From a bacterium HR15 (GTDB taxonomy: Bacteria; Armatimonadota; Fimbriimonadia; Fimbriimonadales; GBS-DC): DNA of 57,220 bases. The stretch is taken from assembly GCA_002898555.1 (NCBI GenBank), contig BEHR01000023.1:1-57220 (forward strand). The letters run 5' to 3'. How positions within the stretch are numbered: the stretch's first letter is position 1; every line of letters begins with the position of its first letter. The translations under genes were made by a program, and so were the position numbers. Shown piece after piece: positions 2 through 41,991 of this stretch. Below the pieces are notes generated by a model. The model worked only from the letters and a program-made list of their open reading frames with translations, was not told the DNA's origin and did no database searches.

Positions 2-100
2 TTGATCAGTCCTGTGGCGATAGAGAAGGGTTTGCGTTTTGCGATTCGTGAGGGTGGTCGGACGGTTGGTGCAGGTGTGGTAACGGACATCCTGGATTAA
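2..100 (+). CDS. tuf: Elongation factor Tu, C-terminal end (partial)
   Basis: The left edge of the window reads as the last 32 codons of EF-Tu: a segment containing [20 protein letters not shown] followed by D and a TAA stop at 98-100. This is the domain III tail of the GTPase that delivers aminoacyl-tRNA to the ribosome. The start lies outside the window. rpsJ follows 54 bp later, the usual str-to-S10 junction, so tuf and the S10 cluster are probably co-transcribed. The identification rests on the near-invariant C-terminal motif. Confidence 0.93.
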
Positions 101-115
101 TCTACACCGCGTACA

Positions 116-133
116 GGCTGACTCGTCCAATCC
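116..133 (+). repeat. 9-bp periodic element, two degenerate units (tuf-rpsJ gap)
   Basis: Two adjacent 9-mers, GGCTGACTC and GTCCAATCC, sit between tuf and the rpsJ Shine-Dalgarno sequence. They match the unit family seen in other gaps of this locus (for example 2283-2318). Alone this copy would not be convincing; it is listed because of the family. Confidence 0.4.
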
Positions 134-154
134 CATCCAAGGAGGACAATCTTG

Positions 155-463
155 ATGCGACGCGACAAGATACGGATACGGCTAAGGGCATACGATCATC
201 GGGTGCTGGATGAATCGGTGAAGCGGATCGTGGAGCAGGTGCGCAGCACCGGGGCGCAGGTGCGCGGACCTGTGCCCCTGCCTACCGACATTCGCCGCTT
301 CTGCGTCATTCGCGGTCCGCACATCGACAAAATCGGCATGGAGCATTTCGAAATTCGCACCCATAAGCGACTGATCGATATCCTTGAGCCGAACAACCGC
401 ACCATCGACGCGTTGATGCGCCTGGATCTGCCCAGTGGCGTGGATATAGAAATCAAGCTCTAA
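155..463 (+). CDS. rpsJ: 30S ribosomal protein S10
   Basis: This 102-aa protein has the full S10 length and the hallmark central segment [21 protein letters not shown]10 sits in the 30S head and also acts as the NusE transcription-antitermination factor. A GGAGG at 141-145 is 9 nt before ATG 155. An in-frame TTG at 152 is closer than ideal, so ATG 155 is chosen. The C-terminus ends in the typical SGVDIEIKL. It is the first gene of the S10 cluster, 15 nt upstream of rplC. Confidence 0.96.
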
Positions 464-478
464 TAGGAGGCAGCTACA

Positions 479-1309
479 ATGAGCGAGGAGAAGCCGACTC
501 AGGATGAGATGAGCACAACTGAAAATGCCGAATCCCCGCAGCTGGCGGAGGCATCCGCGCCAGCGGAACCATCCGACTCGTCAGAGCAGTCTGAACTGGC
601 TGGACACTCGGATCAGTCGGAAACAACACCGACTGCCTCCGGCGCGGAACCTACCCCAGCGAAACCGTCACTGCCACCGCCCCCCGTGCTAAGTGGGCTG
701 ATTGGGCGCAAGCTTGGCATGATGCACATTTTCGACAGCGAAGGACGGATGGTGCCCGTGACGGTGCTGGAAGTCGGTCCATGCTTTGTGGTGCAGGTGC
801 GCACGCCAGAGCGGGACGGCTACTACGCCGCGCAGATCGGCTTCGAGCGTATCGCCCGGCGCAAGGTGAACAAGCCGTTGGCAGGTATCTTCAGAAGGGC
901 AGGGCTGGAACAGCCTCTGCGCCATCTGAAAGAGTTTCGCGTGCTGTCAGGTCAAGCGGTGCCTGGGCAGGAAATTCGCCCAGAGCATGTGTTCCAAGTG
1001 GGCGAAGTGGTACGCGTCACGGGTATCTCGAAGGGCAAGGGCTTCGCCGGCGTGGTGAAACGCTATGGCTTCGCCGGTGGTCCGATGACGCACGGCTCCA
1101 TGACCCATCGCCGACCCCTCTCCAGCGGCGCCACCGGTCCACAGCGTGTGTTCAAGAACAAGCCGATGCCCGGACGCATGGGGGGCGAGCAAGTCACTGT
1201 CCGTGGATTGACCATCGTGCGCATCGAGCCAGAGCGCAATCTGATGTTGATCCGGGGCGCTGTGCCCGGCGGACGCGGCTCGATCGTCTATGTGCAAAAA
1301 CAGATGTAG
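479..1309 (+). CDS. rplC: 50S ribosomal protein L3 with N-terminal acidic extension
   Basis: L3 is an early-assembly protein of the 50S subunit. The family core starts near residue 70 (LSGLIGRKLGMMHIFD) and includes the glycine- and histidine-rich stretch GGPMTHGSMTHRRPLSSG. L3 is usually about 205-215 aa; this one is 276 aa because of a Ser/Glu/Pro-rich N-terminal extension of about 70 residues. Within it, about residues 31-48 form X-S-D/E triplets encoded by a 9-bp periodic DNA element (553-624) like those in the intergenic gaps. ATG 479 has a well-placed GGAGG at 467-471. A start inside the extension is possible, but no Met codon lies between residue 11 and the core. Confidence 0.95.
   Translation: MSEEKPTQDEMSTTENAESPQLAEASAPAEPSDSSEQSELAGHSDQSETTPTASGAEPTPAKPSLPPPPVLSGLIGRKLGMMHIFDSEGRMVPVTVLEVGPCFVVQVRTPERDGYYAAQIGFERIARRKVNKPLAGIFRRAGLEQPLRHLKEFRVLSGQAVPGQEIRPEHVFQVGEVVRVTGISKGKGFAGVVKRYGFAGGPMTHGSMTHRRPLSSGATGPQRVFKNKPMPGRMGGEQVTVRGLTIVRIEPERNLMLIRGAVPGGRGSIVYVQKQM
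553..624 (+). repeat. 9-bp periodic element inside the rplC extension (about 8 units)
   Basis: From 553 to 624 the DNA reads as about eight consecutive 9-mers, for example ATCCGACTC (571), GTCAGAGCA (580), GTCTGAACT (589), GGCTGGACA (598) and GTCGGAAAC (616). GGCTGGACA is nearly the GGCTGGACC at 10752, and GTCAGAGCA resembles the GCCAGAGCG at 2301. The period equals three codons, so the element is translated as NNN-TCN-GAN, giving X-Ser-Asp/Glu triplets. Confidence 0.7.
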
Positions 1310-35342: not shown

Positions 35343-36717
35343 CGCATTCGCCCAGTATGCCTTCAGGCGAAACACTCTGGATGCGCACAGGCACCAATTG
35401 CCCCACCAGCGTGGGCGACCCCGTGAACTCGACTTGCAGGTAGTGGTCGCTCGTGCCTGTCAACAGTCCCGAAAGTTTGGAACGGGTTTCTACGCGTACA
35501 TATTCGGTCTGCCCGATGAAGCGGGTGGCGTAGCGCAGCTGCACAGCCCGGCATACCGCTTGCAACCGTTGTGCGCGTTCTGCTTTGACATGCTCTGGCA
35601 CTTGTTCCGCCATCGCCTCAGCGGGGGTGCCAGGGCGCGGGGAATAGCGAAAGAGGTGCGCACGGCAGAACTCCACCGTCTCCACCACGCGGCAAGTGTT
35701 TTCGAACGCCTCCTCGTCCTCGCCGGGAAAGCCGACCATAATGTCGGTGCTGATTGCCAGATGGGGGATGCGCTCGCGCAAGCGGCGGCACAGGTCTAAA
35801 TAGAACGCCTGGTCATAAGGGCGGTTCATCGTCCGCAGCACGCGCGAATCACCGCTTTGCAGCGGGATGTGCAGATGTGGGCACATTTTGGGGTTCGTTG
35901 CCAGCTGCTCGATCAGCGCATCGCTCACCTGAGTGGGTTCGATGGAGCTGATACGGATGCGTTCCAGCCCCTCGATCTCGCTCAGCATCGCACACAGGGT
36001 CGGCAGGTCGGGTCCACCGCTGCCGGAATGTTCCCCATAGTCGCCAATCAGCACGCCCGTCAGCACAATCTCTCTGAAGCCATGCGCGACCAACGCCTGC
36101 GCCTCCGCCAGCACCTCCTGATAGGGCAGGCTGCGCATTACGGGGCGCGTATAGGGGATGGAACAAAAAGAGCAGAACACATTGCAACCGTCCTGAATTT
36201 TCAGCACGGCACGGGTACGCTTCAGGGGGCGCGGCTCCGCGTTGGGAATCGGTTCGTCATCCATCGACCCAGGCGTGGGACGAGATTTTTCCTCCGAGCC
36301 AGACGGGTGCCCCAGAGGAAAAATCTTGGAAGGGCTGGAGGTGAGAGCATCGGTCCGAAGTTGTTCCGCCAGCTCAGGAAAGTTCTCCAGCAGCCTGTCC
36401 ACGGTGTGGAGTTTATCGGGATTGGGCACCACGAGGTGCGCTTCTGCCACGCGCTCACCCCGCCGCAGTGTGAACTGGGCGTAGCAGCCCGTCATGACCA
36501 CGATCGCGTTCGGGTTCTGGCGTGCCGCGCGGCGCACCGTCTGGCGCGATTTCGCTTCCGCCGATTGCGTGACCGAACAGGTGTTAATCACATACACATC
36601 GGCGGGGCTATCGAACGGCACAATTTCGAACCCGCGCGCCTCAAAACTCTCCAGAATCTTCTGGGTCTCATACTGATTGACCTTGCAACCGAGCGTGGTG
36701 AGCGCAACTTTCGGCAT
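35332..36717 (-). CDS. mtaB: tRNA (t6A37) methylthiotransferase MtaB
   Basis: MtaB converts t6A37 to ms2t6A37 in ANN-decoding tRNAs. The N-terminal UPF0004 domain has cluster cysteines C11, C47 and C78. The radical-SAM motif C178-x3-C182-x2-C185 (CNVFCSFC) is intact, and a TRAM-like domain ends the 461-aa protein. Residues 123-165 form an unusually long polar linker between the two domains. ATG 36717 follows GAGGTTACC and a GGGTAAAAT box 9 nt upstream. Confidence 0.93.
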   Translation of the reverse strand: MPKVALTTLGCKVNQYETQKILESFEARGFEIVPFDSPADVYVINTCSVTQSAEAKSRQTVRRAARQNPNAIVVMTGCYAQFTLRRGERVAEAHLVVPNPDKLHTVDRLLENFPELAEQLRTDALTSSPSKIFPLGHPSGSEEKSRPTPGSMDDEPIPNAEPRPLKRTRAVLKIQDGCNVFCSFCSIPYTRPVMRSLPYQEVLAEAQALVAHGFREIVLTGVLIGDYGEHSGSGGPDLPTLCAMLSEIEGLERIRISSIEPTQVSDALIEQLATNPKMCPHLHIPLQSGDSRVLRTMNRPYDQAFYLDLCRRLRERIPHLAISTDIMVGFPGEDEEAFENTCRVVETVEFCRAHLFRYSPRPGTPAEAMAEQVPEHVKAERAQRLQAVCRAVQLRYATRFIGQTEYVRVETRSKLSGLLTGTSDHYLQVEFTGSPTLVGQLVPVRIQSVSPEGILGECVTR

Positions 36718-36726
36718 GGTAACCTC

Positions 36727-36735
36727 ATTTTACCC
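36727..36735 (-). promoter_or_regulatory. Candidate promoter (-10 GGGTAAAAT) for mtaB
   Basis: TAAAAT on the minus strand (36732-36727) preceded by GGG; the 9 nt to ATG contain a GAGG. The same 12-base block precedes kbl. Confidence 0.45.
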
Positions 36736-36787
36736 TGCCACCGCGCACGCGCCTTATGCGCGCGACAGGAGGGGTTGCCTGCTGGCG

Positions 36788-36795
36788 GGTATAAT
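36788..36795 (+). promoter_or_regulatory. Candidate promoter (-10 GGTATAAT) of tRNA-Arg
   Basis: TATAAT at 36790-36795, preceded by GGG (36787-36789), 8 nt before the mature 5' end of the tRNA. No TTGACA-like box at 17 bp. It is the only promoter seen upstream of both the tRNA and the GH42-like gene. Confidence 0.6.
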
Positions 36796-36803
36796 TAAAG
36801 CGC

Positions 36804-36878
36804 GCCCCCGTAGCTCAGTGGATAGAGCGCAGGCCTCCGGAGCCTGGTGCGCAGGTTCGATTCCTGCCGGGGGCGCCA
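36804..36878 (+). tRNA. tRNA-Arg (anticodon CCG)
   Basis: A full 75-nt cloverleaf with encoded CCA. The acceptor GCCCCCG pairs with CGGGGGC. The D arm is GCTC-AGTGGATA-GAGC, the anticodon arm CAGGC-CTCCGGA-GCCTG gives anticodon CCG, the variable loop is GTGC, and the T arm is GCAGG-TTCGATT-CCTGC; the discriminator is G. It reads CGG arginine codons. The GH42-like ATG lies only 23 bp downstream with no terminator between. Confidence 0.95.
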
Positions 36879-36901
36879 TATTTGCAGCCAGGAGGACGCC
36901 G

Positions 36902-39886
36902 ATGCGAAGCCTGATAGGATGGCTGGTCATGCTACTGATGGGAAAGGCATTCGCGCAAGCCCAATTACAACTGATCCCGCAGTCGTTTACCATCCGCCCG
37001 AATCTGGTGCGCAACGGTAGCTTCGAAGAGGTACAGAACGGCTTGCCTGTCGGTTGGCGATGGGACAAACGCAACACCGACGCCACCGCGCAAGTGGTCG
37101 AAGGCGAGGCGGCGACGGGCATGCGCTGCCTGAAGCTGACCAGCACGACCCCGTTTGCCCCCGATACTTATGGGCTATTGCGCTATGAAGGAGGCGTGCC
37201 TGTCCAACCCAGTGCGGTCTACACGCTCAGCGTGCGCTACAGAGCGAAAGGGGGCTATCAGGGCTTTGTAGGAGGCGGGAAACTCTGGCGTGTGCGCCTC
37301 CCTTTAGAAGATACAGGGGGGCAATGGAAACGCGCCGCGATTACCTTCGCCACCGCCAGCGATGAAACCAACTTCGATCTGGTTATCACGGTCGAGACGC
37401 CCACGGAGGGGCTGTATATCGACGATTTGAAGCTGGAGGAGGGGCGCGAACCCAGCTTTTTCGTGCCTGCGGAAACACCTGACCGCCCACTCCTCTATCT
37501 GAGCGAGTTGCCTGATAAGGTCTATCTAAATACGCCTACATGGAGTGGCTTCATAGAGTTCTACCTGCCCACCGAGGCGAAAGATGCCCGTGTCGAAATG
37601 CGATTGGGCGAGCAACTTGCCCAGCAACAGATGAACTTGCCTGCTGGCGTCATCCGTGCCGAGTTCCAGTTTGCGGAGCCACCCGCCCGGCAGCAAACCC
37701 TGACCATCCGCATCGAATCATCCAATCTGCCCACCGTCGAGGCGAGCCACACTTTCACCTTCTTCACCCGGCGCGAGGCACAAGCACGGCTCGACGCCAT
37801 TCGTCAGTCGCTGCCGCGTTGGCAGTCGCAGCTGAACACCATTCGCCAGCGCGGACAAGATGTTGCCTATCCCCTTGCGAGTTTCACCATCCTGCAGGAG
37901 TTCGTGCCCTATGTGGAGAGCGATATACAGAAGGGGCTGCTGCAGCGTGCTTTTCAGCAGTTGGACGAGATGGAGCCGATGGCGCAGCGGCTGACTCAGA
38001 CCCTGAGCGAGGTGCTGAACGGTAAGCGTCGTCTTCCGACCGTGCCTCGCTATGTGACCTCGCCCGTTGAGATCAAAGGCGCGTCGCTGATTGCCGATAC
38101 AGTGGATCCCGTCACGGGCAAGCGCGAGCGACGCCCTGTGTTCCTGGTGGGATTCGGACATTTCGGCAAGGTTCGCAAGGATTTGGAGAAATTCCCGCGT
38201 ATGGGGTTCAACCTGGTGCAGGTTGAGATGGGCGTGTCGGACATCCTACCGCGCAAGGGGGAAGTTCGCCTCAAGAAACTGGAGGAAGACATTCTGCCCC
38301 TGTTGCGTCGCGCTGCGCAGGCGAATGTGCGCGTCGATCTGCTCATCAGTCCCCACTATATGCCCGACTGGGTGCTACAGGAGTATCCTGAGCTGCGCCA
38401 GGCACGCGAAGGATTTTTGCAATACAGCCTTTTCGCCCCCCAGAGCCTGCAGGTGCTGAAAGAGTACCTTCGGCACTTCGCGCCACATCTGCGCAATCAG
38501 CCTGCGTTGAACAGCATCTGCCTCTCGAACGAGCCGATGAATGTGGAGGATCCACAATCGCCCCCACAGCTGGCGGCATGGCGCGAATGGCTGAAAGCCC
38601 GCCACAAGACCCTGCTGACACTCAACACCCGTTGGCAGACCAATTACTCAAGTTGGGATAACATCCCTATTCCGACCGAGGGCGCGCCCTATGCCGAGTT
38701 CTGCGAGTTCAACCAGGAGTGGACAGCCAACTGGCATCGTGCGTTGGCACAGGAGCTGAAACGCTACTTGCCGGGCGTTCCACTTCACGCGAAGCTGATG
38801 AGCGGGCTGTTTCTGAGCGATCGCGAGCAGCATCGTGGCATCGACCCGCAACTATTTGCCGAGTTCTGCGAGCTGAACGGCAACGATGCAACGACCTTCT
38901 ATTCTCATGCGCCCGATTCGCCCTTCGCGTTCGGCTGGGTTGGCACGATGATGGCACACGATTTGCAGCGCTCGCTCCGCGATGCCCCTCTATTCAATTC
39001 TGAAAACCATGTGATTCCCGACCGGGAGCAGCGCGTTGTGCCGCCCCAACATGGGCGTGCCGTGCTGTGGGAGGAGGCGATTCGTGGGCTGTCTGCCACG
39101 ACCTTCTGGGTCTGGGAGCGCACGGACGACCCGCAGAGTGATTTCGCAGGTAGCCTGTTGCATCGCCCAGCGTTTATCGAGGCGCTGGCGCACACCGCGC
39201 TGGATCTCAATCGCCTCGCACCCTATGTGGCGGCGCTGCAAAATCAACCACCCGATCTCTATCTCTACCACTCGCCCCTCGACTTGGTGCTGCAGGGTGC
39301 GGATGCGGTGGTTGCCCGCGATCATCTGTATATTGCGCTGACGATGCTGGGCGTGCGGGTCGGGTTCGTCACGGAGCGTCAGGTGGCGGCGCGTCAGTTG
39401 CCAGCTGGGAAGCGCATTCTCCTGCCGGGCGTGCAGTACATTTCGGATGAGGCACTCCTCGCCTTAGACACCTATCGTCAGCGTGGGGGTGGGTTAGCCG
39501 CACTGGGCGAGCCGATCCTGCGTTTCGATCGGTATGGACGCCCCCGCAGCTCGCGCCTGCCAGTGCAGACCATCGACCGCGACGCCACTCTGGATGCCCG
39601 ATTGCTGCACCAGAAGCTGGCGCGATTCCTGGATGAATGGAATATTGTACGCCCGCTGCGCTTGTTGAACGAGGGTGGGCAGCCTGTCTGGGGGGTTGCC
39701 TATCGTACCGCGCCTTACGGCAACGGCTTCGTCGCCAGCCTCTGCAACTACACCCAGAAGCCGATTACTGTGCGCCTCGTGAACGACAAGAACGAGCCGA
39801 TTCGGGCAGTGAACCTGTTCACAGACGCGCGTGTAGAGGGGCAACTCACGCTGCAGCCGCTGGAGCCGGTGCTGTTGCGGTGGTAG
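36902..39886 (+). CDS. Secreted GH42-like beta-galactosidase family protein
   Basis: A 994-aa protein with a signal peptide (MRSLIGWLVMLLMGKAFA). A beta-sandwich carbohydrate-binding-like domain follows (NLVRNGSFEEVQNGLPVGW to IDDLKLEEG, about 30-180). The TIM barrel from about 410 resembles GH42: acid/base E544 in LSNEPMN and candidate nucleophile E701 in FNSENHV. The C-terminal part (LLPGVQYISDEALLAL, GGGLAALGE) resembles the GH42 amidotransferase-like domain. It probably hydrolyses beta-galactosides or related glycans outside the cytoplasm; the exact substrate is unknown. ATG 36902 has CAGGAGGA upstream. Confidence 0.8.
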   Translation: MRSLIGWLVMLLMGKAFAQAQLQLIPQSFTIRPNLVRNGSFEEVQNGLPVGWRWDKRNTDATAQVVEGEAATGMRCLKLTSTTPFAPDTYGLLRYEGGVPVQPSAVYTLSVRYRAKGGYQGFVGGGKLWRVRLPLEDTGGQWKRAAITFATASDETNFDLVITVETPTEGLYIDDLKLEEGREPSFFVPAETPDRPLLYLSELPDKVYLNTPTWSGFIEFYLPTEAKDARVEMRLGEQLAQQQMNLPAGVIRAEFQFAEPPARQQTLTIRIESSNLPTVEASHTFTFFTRREAQARLDAIRQSLPRWQSQLNTIRQRGQDVAYPLASFTILQEFVPYVESDIQKGLLQRAFQQLDEMEPMAQRLTQTLSEVLNGKRRLPTVPRYVTSPVEIKGASLIADTVDPVTGKRERRPVFLVGFGHFGKVRKDLEKFPRMGFNLVQVEMGVSDILPRKGEVRLKKLEEDILPLLRRAAQANVRVDLLISPHYMPDWVLQEYPELRQAREGFLQYSLFAPQSLQVLKEYLRHFAPHLRNQPALNSICLSNEPMNVEDPQSPPQLAAWREWLKARHKTLLTLNTRWQTNYSSWDNIPIPTEGAPYAEFCEFNQEWTANWHRALAQELKRYLPGVPLHAKLMSGLFLSDREQHRGIDPQLFAEFCELNGNDATTFYSHAPDSPFAFGWVGTMMAHDLQRSLRDAPLFNSENHVIPDREQRVVPPQHGRAVLWEEAIRGLSATTFWVWERTDDPQSDFAGSLLHRPAFIEALAHTALDLNRLAPYVAALQNQPPDLYLYHSPLDLVLQGADAVVARDHLYIALTMLGVRVGFVTERQVAARQLPAGKRILLPGVQYISDEALLALDTYRQRGGGLAALGEPILRFDRYGRPRSSRLPVQTIDRDATLDARLLHQKLARFLDEWNIVRPLRLLNEGGQPVWGVAYRTAPYGNGFVASLCNYTQKPITVRLVNDKNEPIRAVNLFTDARVEGQLTLQPLEPVLLRW

Positions 39887-39964
39887 CCGCTTTGTGGCAA
39901 GGCGAATTTGTGCTGCAGATGGGTTCAGCAAGCTGAGGCGTGTGCCCTGCGCTGTTCTTGAGTG

Positions 39965-39981: not shown

Positions 39982-41991
39982 ATGCGGGAGCCAGTGGAGT
40001 GTCGCGCCTCGGTGGAAAGGGTGCTGGAGCAGCTCGATCGGGAGGCGCCTGGGGTGCCGCTGCTGGCGCTGGGGCAAACCGTGTTCTGGGACGAGCCGAC
40101 CAAGAGCGTTCTGCTATGGTTGATGGAAGCGTGCCAGCGCGTGCGCCCCTTTTTCTTCGGCGTGCATGATACCGACTACTTTGCCCGCTTGCATGCTCGT
40201 GAGTGGCGCGTGGCGAGTAGCGAATGGCATGGGGATGGTTTCGCCCTGCTACCCCATAATGACTACTCCACCCGCGCGTTGTGGTCCTCGGCGGGCGAAA
40301 TTTCCTGCCTGTTCGGCAGCGAGTTGATCCCGACTCGTGCGCGTTATCGTGAGGCAGGGGCGCAGCTGGAAAAGGTGGCGCCACATCATCCTGCGGGACG
40401 CATCGCTTTTTTGGATGCCATCACGGAGGCGTGGGGCTGGCGTGGGTTAGTGGCTACTGGGCGCGCGCCTTTGCCTGTGTACGAGATACCTGTGCGCGAG
40501 GTGTTGCCCGCTCTGGATGCCCTCCTGCAGTGGGGCTTTGAGGCAACTCTGCAGTGTTTAGCGGAGCCTGAGCAGCGCGAGCGCGCCCGTCAGCGCGCGG
40601 AGAGGATCCGCCAGCGCGTGCATGAATTGGTAGCCTTGTCGGATGGGTCTCTCTCACTGGCAGACCTCTATCGCTATCTCTATCGCGACTTTCTGGTGTG
40701 GCTAATCGGGCGCGTGCCCGAGACGGTCGGTTTCACACGCACGACGGAACTCCTACGCTTCACCCCTGAAACGGCGCATCGTCCGCGTTTCCAGCTGCTG
40801 CAGCACTTTTTAGACCCGCGCACGCGCCCGCTGTGCGAACGCGCTTATAACGAAGCCGTTGCCGACACCGAAATCTACACCCTCGATGAGTTTGGCGAGG
40901 GCGCACTGCCGTTCGACCTGCTCATCCCGCGCCGTGGACGCGGCACACTGCTGCTCACCGAACGCTACCTTACGGTGCTGACCCCTGAACCCGTTATCCT
41001 GCGCCTGAAGCAACCTGTGGAAACGGTAGCCACGCTGGCAGAGGTGCTTGCGCAGGCGTTCGGCGACGCGACCGTACTGATTGGGAAGGCGTTGACGCTG
41101 GTGCCGATGCTGGCGCATGAGTTCGTGTTCGTGTTTAACGAGCGGGGTTCACCCTACCTCCCCCTGAGCGTGCGCATGCTCCAGCGGATGCACCAGGAAG
41201 GGATAGCATTCGCCCTCTATCCGCTTTTGCGCCTGCGCTATGCGACCTGGGACACCATCGGCGCGGAATGTGTGCAGCTTCGGCTTCCCGACCACTTAGC
41301 CACAGCGTTCGGCGAGCGTGAACTATGCTCTGAACAATTTGCGCGACGCTGGCGCGAGGTGGTACAGGCACAAAAAGAGTTGCTGCACGCGCTCAGCGCG
41401 TGTCATAGCCCCCGTGCTTTGATGCGCTTCCTCGCGGAGCGATACGGTGAACCATGGCAAGGATATACCGCCGTGTATGAGGAGCTGCATGGGCAGTTGC
41501 AGCAGTTAGGTAAGGAAGCGGATAAGCTGCGCCAGCAAGCCCATGCACTCCATGCGGAACGTCGCGCCTTGAAGCGGGAGCGCGCCCGATTAGAGCGTGA
41601 AAAAGGGGAGCATTTTCGGCGGGCAATTCGGAGCGACAGCGAAAGCGAGCGACAGCGGCACATGGCTCAGCGTGAAGCGTGTGAGGTGCGCTTGCAAGCC
41701 ATCGCGGAGCGACTGCGTGCCATTCGCCAACAGTTGCGCCAGCTGCTCGCTCAGCGATTGCAGATGGGACGCACGCCCGAACAGTTAGCCGTTCGCGAAC
41801 GGGTGCAGCAACTGGAGTATGAAGCGGAGGTCGCGCGGGTGGAGCTTGCCCGCAATGCCATTCTGACCGCAGAAGGCTTGCCACTGACCAACGCACGCCC
41901 TACCGCATGGTGGTTCCTGCTGGTCTCTGACGCATGGTTCCGTGCGAATGCCCAGCAAACAGAACTTTACTTGGAATCGCTCCGCGGATGA
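39982..41991 (+). CDS. Unrecognised 669-aa protein with C-terminal coiled coil
   Basis: I do not recognise this protein. The N-terminal 130 residues look like an alpha/beta domain with LLALGQTVFWDEPTKSVLL, FFFGVHDTDYFAR and LLPHNDYSTRALWSSAGEI, followed by a mixed region and, at about 500-620, a strongly charged heptad-like coiled coil (LHAERRALKRERARLEREKG). It ends with a Trp/Phe-rich block. There is no signal peptide or membrane segment, so it is probably cytoplasmic. GQ-x-x-x-F-x-x-P followed by a D-x-D pair faintly recalls the N-domain of BshC-type enzymes, but this is not enough to assign a function. An in-frame GTG at 39940 precedes the -10 box, so ATG 39982 is preferred. Codon use matches the host. 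Confidence 0.8.
   Translation: MREPVECRASVERVLEQLDREAPGVPLLALGQTVFWDEPTKSVLLWLMEACQRVRPFFFGVHDTDYFARLHAREWRVASSEWHGDGFALLPHNDYSTRALWSSAGEISCLFGSELIPTRARYREAGAQLEKVAPHHPAGRIAFLDAITEAWGWRGLVATGRAPLPVYEIPVREVLPALDALLQWGFEATLQCLAEPEQRERARQRAERIRQRVHELVALSDGSLSLADLYRYLYRDFLVWLIGRVPETVGFTRTTELLRFTPETAHRPRFQLLQHFLDPRTRPLCERAYNEAVADTEIYTLDEFGEGALPFDLLIPRRGRGTLLLTERYLTVLTPEPVILRLKQPVETVATLAEVLAQAFGDATVLIGKALTLVPMLAHEFVFVFNERGSPYLPLSVRMLQRMHQEGIAFALYPLLRLRYATWDTIGAECVQLRLPDHLATAFGERELCSEQFARRWREVVQAQKELLHALSACHSPRALMRFLAERYGEPWQGYTAVYEELHGQLQQLGKEADKLRQQAHALHAERRALKRERARLEREKGEHFRRAIRSDSESERQRHMAQREACEVRLQAIAERLRAIRQQLRQLLAQRLQMGRTPEQLAVRERVQQLEYEAEVARVELARNAILTAEGLPLTNARPTAWWFLLVSDAWFRANAQQTELYLESLRG

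Follow-up and report, generated by a model that had tools for sequence, protein, structure and literature searches.

What is the 669-residue protein encoded in the window (the whole stretch of bacterium HR15 DNA analyzed here, 57,220 nucleotides), and in what kind of pathway does it act? Its ORF runs on the forward strand from an ATG at 39982 to a stop codon ending at 41991 (Table 1), and translation bears out the GQTVFWDEP and VHDTDYF motifs reported in a preliminary description, at residues 31-39 and 61-67, respectively. The exact start is tentative because no clear ribosome-binding site is visible by eye ahead of the ATG; an upstream extension of the same frame to a GTG at 39940 would give 683 residues. 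The alignment of most relatives begins at about residues 1-25 of the 669-residue form. The gene is intact and single-copy in its own genome; its neighbors in the window are a gene for a GH42-type protein on one side and, on the other, the TPI gene, which is convergent and on the opposite strand.

Table 1. Coordinates of the gene and of its conserved or structurally predicted parts (window numbering)
Feature	Position	Strand	Basis
CDS of the 669-residue BshC-like protein (alternative start, GTG at 39940)	39982..41991	+	ORF, relatives, alignment
Residues 1-449, predicted class I aaRS-type (HUP) Rossmann core with insertions	39982..41328	+	Core model; matches to 4wbd and 1irx
Residues 31-41, GQTVFWDEPxK, behind first core strand	40072..40104	+	G31-E38 and K41 invariant in 71/71 rows
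Residues 62-67, HDTDYF, behind second core strand	40165..40182	+	D65, Y66, F67 invariant; H62, D63, T64 nearly so
Residues 299-322, YTLDxFGxGAxPFDLxIPxxGRGT, conserved beta-hairpin insertion	40876..40947	+	Y299, F304, P310-D312, G319-G321 invariant
Residues 369-417, second half of the Rossmann fold	41086..41232	+	K369, S390, Y392, R417 invariant
Residues 492-638, predicted long antiparallel helices (coiled coil)	41455..41895	+	Model; least conserved stretch
Residues 639-644, RPTAWW, conserved C-terminal motif	41896..41913	+	R639, P640, W643, W644 invariant

Searches of Pfam, NCBIfam, PHROGs and PADLOC gave only weak matches, nearly all of them in the coiled-coil stretch. Hits to SMC, DndD and JetC fall mostly within residues ~490-630 and were dismissed as compositional; a weak Pfam match to DUF4543 had an E-value of 0.046. 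A Pfam scan of all 71 aligned members revealed no shared family, and a PDB sequence search returned noise. The preliminary description had found no family that it could name, and this holds for the four collections; nor did a well-characterized full-length family turn up at the sequence level.

Relatives were collected by a genome scan (one genome per species) seeded with short peptides of the protein, a design that could miss distant relatives outside the phylum. It gave 93 relatives, of which 80 were kept, with 31-55% identity in the best segment. The protein is matched in 120 of 201 Armatimonadota genomes (95 of the 141 good ones), usually at one place per genome, a spread that marks it as a genuine gene of long standing in Armatimonadota. 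The titles of the relatives name Armatimonadota, candidate division WS1, unnamed bacteria and one archaeon-labelled MAG, which agrees with the earlier suggestion that the protein is lineage-specific. The MAG, labelled as a Methanoregulaceae archaeon (L015), carries a copy nearly identical to a Fimbriimonadaceae row, from which a very short branch separates it on the tree, and its archaeal label is probably a binning or labelling error. Neither the viral contigs nor the plasmids searched contained the protein.

The alignment comprises 71 rows, namely the window protein and 70 of the 80 loci; near copies or redundant loci (L006, L018, L023, L032, L074), truncated ones (L057, L058, L068), a frameshifted one (L071) and one with an over-long ORF (L051) were left out. 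The 1034-residue fusion that the L051 ORF would represent was rejected since the added stretch shows the third-position pattern of non-coding DNA. There are 37 invariant columns, which cluster in GQTVFWDEPxK, HDTDYF, the 299-322 hairpin, the positions K369, S390, Y392 and R417, and RPxxWW (639-644). On average, relatives are 52% identical to the window protein over residues 25-120 and 50% over 251-345, but 25% over 491-600. Could the protein then be a structural or regulatory one with a dead synthetase-like core? The long coiled coil and the lack of the catalytic motifs of known enzymes would suit such a role, but it is parts of the core that are most conserved, with polar invariants (K41, D65, E106, E114, K369, R417), and the coiled coil that is least so. 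We consider this role very improbable. The preliminary description had left the choice between an enzyme and a structural protein; an enzyme fold whose invariant positions include polar residues makes the latter the less likely choice.

The full-length AlphaFold model (pLDDT 94.1, pTM 0.89) has an alpha/beta core at about residues 1-449, long helices from about 450 to 638 and, at the C-terminus, a short segment of helices plus one strand, which in outline is the domain plan proposed from the sequence. The hairpin insertion is formed by strands 308-315 and 319-325. The core was also modelled by itself (pLDDT 90.9, pTM 0.89). In VIA comparisons the top match of the whole model is the Bacillus subtilis BshC structure 4wbd (Z 12.7, 426 residues spanning 13..664); the rmsd for the complete chain is 15.2, a value that may reflect a differing angle between domains. 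BshC is again the best match of the core (Z 13.8, rmsd 4.4, 309 residues), followed by the class I LysRS 1irx (Z 11.1, rmsd 4.1, 255 residues), and the remaining matches (Z 7.2 or less) are mostly Tyr, Gln, Glu and Trp aaRSs and cyclodipeptide synthases. Foldseek gave a single significant match for the core, 1irx (E 1.6e-4, prob 1.00), and nothing significant for the full-length model, for which long-helix proteins rank first as helical noise; BshC is absent among the best 50 Foldseek matches listed for either model. A viral structure library likewise contained no significant match. Taken together, the VIA and Foldseek matches of the core indicate a class I synthetase-type core to which BshC is nearest, so that the modelled fold is a class I aaRS-type Rossmann core plus a long helical coiled coil. 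The comparison with BshC and nucleotide-binding folds that had been proposed as a check thus puts 4wbd first and 1irx next.

Is the protein a class I aaRS paralog that charges tRNA or uses aminoacyl-tRNA, in the manner of class I LysRS or the cyclodipeptide synthases? It has the HUP Rossmann catalytic core in common with 1irx and other class I enzymes, and the LysRS matches just described count in favor of such a role. However, a KMSKS-like string occurs in none of the 71 rows, HIGH-like strings occur in 13 rows at scattered positions (as recorded for six of them), no NCBIfam aaRS model matches, and BshC fits better and over more residues. A tRNA-dependent role is therefore unlikely.

How close, then, is the protein to BshC? 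The published plan of BshC, a Rossmann core with CP1/CP2 and a coiled-coil dimer domain, as outlined in PMC4360819, is also that of our model. Both have the core fold and the C-terminal helical coiled coil and fall in a similar length class, and by eye both have GQ...K and an acidic HD/DxD motif behind the first two core strands. The motifs differ in detail: where BshC has GQQxG....GP......K the protein has GQTVFWDEPxK, with no GQQ, and where BshC has a DxD..E pattern it has HDTDYF, the acidic-DHD pattern being found in 0 of 71 rows. Neither the protein nor any other product of its genome matches the BshC model PF10079 (for the protein, above the curated cut-offs of Pfam and NCBIfam). Profile-profile alignment (hhalign) with a small, six-row BshC alignment, whose sequences come from two families of Armatimonadota and from plasmids of Deinococcus, Bacillus and Paenibacillus, gave a probability of 0.2 and a score of 19.2; the reversed BshC profile scored 20.6, and shuffled profiles reached 22.0. 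Kinship to BshC therefore rests on the fold: the faint resemblance that the preliminary description saw in the motif pattern is upheld by the structure comparison and not by the profiles. A further difference is that the protein is linked to a DapF-like gene, and that its own genome has no recognizable bshA or bshB. Given the lack of profile detection, the absence of class I signatures and the missing BshA and BshB, we do not file it as BshC; membership tests say no, though it most likely works like BshC. The sections of the 2015 review (PMC4360819) dealing with BshC describe its activity as not shown in vitro and its mechanism of cysteine ligation as still open.

A BshC-like fold raises the question of whether this is the missing BshC of a glucosamine-based thiol, bacillithiol or a close relative, joining cysteine to a glucosaminyl acceptor. 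Classical BshC (PF10079) occurs in six of the 201 genomes, all of them lacking the 669-residue protein, and MshC of mycothiol synthesis exceeds the cut-off in none of the 201, the window's genome included. The mutual exclusion is nevertheless weak evidence, its naive p of 0.004 being overstated because the six BshC genomes belong to just two taxonomic families. Some neighboring genes also fit: a pyridine-nucleotide disulphide oxidoreductase is encoded downstream of the gene in two WS1/Zipacnadia loci, a family-49 gene follows dapF in L051, and a PIG-L deacetylase gene adjoins in L008. But BshA is above cut-off in only six of the 201 genomes and BshB1 in three, neither of them in the window's genome (which does have one PIG-L deacetylase), and PIG-L is missing from 30 of the 113 genomes of the order, among them genomes that have the protein, such as G070, G161 and G200. 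The rarity of BshA and BshB1 and the missing PIG-L make it unlikely that the protein generally serves as a simple substitute for BshC in making bacillithiol. The sole BshA-BshB operon that was inspected (G004) moreover holds another BshC-like ORF, and it was dropped as a missing-BshC case for this reason. We regard the missing-BshC explanation as improbable, if somewhat less so than the tRNA-dependent one. A literature search found no description of thiol chemistry in Armatimonadota; one paper on mercury resistance surfaced. No BshC was found in viral contigs, and there were three BshC records among plasmids.

The preliminary description had also proposed to examine the gene neighborhood in relatives. 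Of 70 loci, 46 have dapF directly downstream on the same strand, seven have a PBP2 (transpeptidase) gene there and 14 another gene; three end too soon to show a neighbor. These counts come from tblastn (a first count from gene calls had scored antisense ORFs over dapF as 'other'), and the DAP epimerase and PBP2 neighbors were identified by Pfam. The ORFs of the 669-residue protein and dapF often overlap stop to start, several by four bases. On the tree, adjacency to dapF reaches deep branches (L011, L031, L065, L067, L069, L078, L081), whereas adjacency to PBP2 is limited to one clade, with two changes; in the WS1/Zipacnadia loci the disulphide oxidoreductase or something else adjoins the gene. 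In four loci of the HRbin16-like lineage (L004, L005, L006, L074) FeoB and FeoA iron-transport genes lie upstream (by eye), and a metallophore role was considered on this account.

Is the linked DapF simply the DAP epimerase? At least two DapF matches are present in 104 of the 120 genomes that have the 669-residue protein versus 6 of the 81 that lack it; the Fisher p of 2e-31 ignores kinship, and split genes can inflate the counts. The other 16 of the 120 genomes, f22 genomes among them, have one DapF match or none; in one genome with fewer than two matches (G085) a FabD-like gene lies downstream (by eye). The linked copies, here called DapF2, match the canonical family (TIGR00652) and keep both catalytic Cys residues (41 of 41 target-linked copies) as well as the GND Asn, Asn64, Glu208 and Arg209 sites. 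They differ from canonical DapF in three ways. First, all 41 carry Ser or Thr where 15 of 15 canonical copies have Asn157 and Asn190 (Haemophilus influenzae numbering). Second, 40 of the 41 lack one residue ahead of the first Cys. Third, the canonical copies form one clade apart from DapF2 (support 100/99). The canonical set was defined without the window's own-genome sequence, which was extracted twice (L107 and L128) and is of the DapF2 type. Among the best 30 matches of a DapF2 profile the first Asn site is Ser or Thr throughout, and the second is Ser in 25, the other five giving no pattern match.

Racemases of the DapF fold that have been re-aimed at other amino acids include PddB, the histidine racemases CntK and HisR, and the O-ureidoserine racemase DcsC. 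The genes for CntK and DcsC adjoin biosynthesis genes of their products; unlike any of these racemases, DapF2 has a BshC-like predicted ligase as its companion. According to PMC8225329 and PMC12039745, it is Asn64, Asn157 and Asn190 that bind the distal carboxylate of DAP. In PddB this set is replaced, which goes with a changed substrate, 2,4-diaminobutyrate (PMC8225329), and DapF-type racemases for histidine and O-ureidoserine are described in PMC11602996. Having lost two of the three distal-carboxylate Asn residues, DapF2 probably acts on an amino acid other than DAP. The window's genome has one DapF match, of the DapF2 type and on another contig; canonical DapF was not found in this assembly, which is rated 98% complete. 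A thioredoxin/TlpA-type-looking ORF overlaps the start of this DapF2 gene (contig C26, L107:1046-2331). In the f6 genomes (L158, L160, L163, L164) DapF2 lies, by eye, between riboflavin-type genes and a D-Ala-D-Ala dipeptidase-like ORF, which is followed by a redoxin-like ORF.

Such neighbors invite the explanation that the 669-residue protein is an envelope enzyme: it would attach an amino acid to a precursor of peptidoglycan or of the surface, and DapF2 would provide either the D-form or a variant of DAP. The presence of dapF at 46 and of PBP2 at seven of the 70 downstream positions fits this idea, as does the dipeptidase-like ORF after DapF2 in the f6 genomes. Against it are the loss from DapF2 of two DAP-binding Asn residues, the restriction of PBP2 adjacency to one clade, and the 81 of 201 genomes of the phylum with no match to the protein. 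We rate this explanation as rather unlikely, although it is the strongest of the alternatives.

The explanation that we prefer, and think probable, is that the 669-residue protein is a BshC-like ATP-dependent amino-acid ligase that acts with a re-purposed DapF racemase. Its Rossmann (HUP) core would activate an amino acid with ATP and join it to an amine without tRNA, and its C-terminal coiled coil would probably form a dimer, as in BshC. DapF2 would be a DAP-epimerase-like racemase with an altered pocket, probably for another amino acid; depending on the order of the two steps, it may provide the ligase with a D-amino acid or alter the stereochemistry of the ligase product. Together, the two enzymes make most sense as members of a pathway that builds a small molecule or an envelope component. 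Several observations weigh against the ligase explanation: the hhalign comparison with BshC is at noise level, and a shared fold shows no function; Foldseek puts helical noise first, with BshC absent among its best 50 matches listed; a second DapF match is lacking in 16 of the 120 genomes that encode the protein; in the window itself the neighbors are the GH42-type and TPI genes, with DapF2 on another contig; and the 2015 review described even the activity of BshC as not shown in vitro.

More broadly, Armatimonadota may carry an undescribed two-enzyme module, a tRNA-independent ligase plus a DapF-derived non-DAP racemase, that makes a small amino-acid conjugate; we put this forward tentatively, as a proposal that could well prove wrong. 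If it is right, about half of the sampled genomes would have the module (104 of 201 have the protein and at least two DapF matches), and its product might be a low-molecular-weight thiol peculiar to the phylum, a metallophore or a precursor of the envelope. The linkage of the protein to dapF and its co-occurrence with a second DapF are findings of the present analysis, and the protein and the altered epimerase point to an unrecognized biosynthetic step in this phylum. Through its tight link to DapF2, a protein that occurs across the phylum and has no known function becomes one half of a two-gene pathway that can be tested. To our knowledge very few BshC-type enzymes are known, and a second, sequence-unrelated branch would provide an independent set of conserved residues for comparison.

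Two minor observations concern ORFs met along the way. The G004 operon mentioned above (contig C40) has, upstream of its BshB-like and BshA genes, a 263-residue ORF (L110:8461-9252, minus strand) with GQQP...K, HDSDHDPRE and GAGEQAY strings like those of BshC. It has no Pfam or NCBIfam match and aligns with BshC by hhalign over 54 columns (E 7e-4, prob 27). It resembles a shortened BshC that lacks the coiled coil and is unique among the 201 genomes, three others giving weak matches (E 0.0016-0.0056). In the window, a tRNA-Arg (ccg) gene at 36804-36878 lies inside the over-long ORF 36677-39886, and the GH42-type protein probably starts near 36899.
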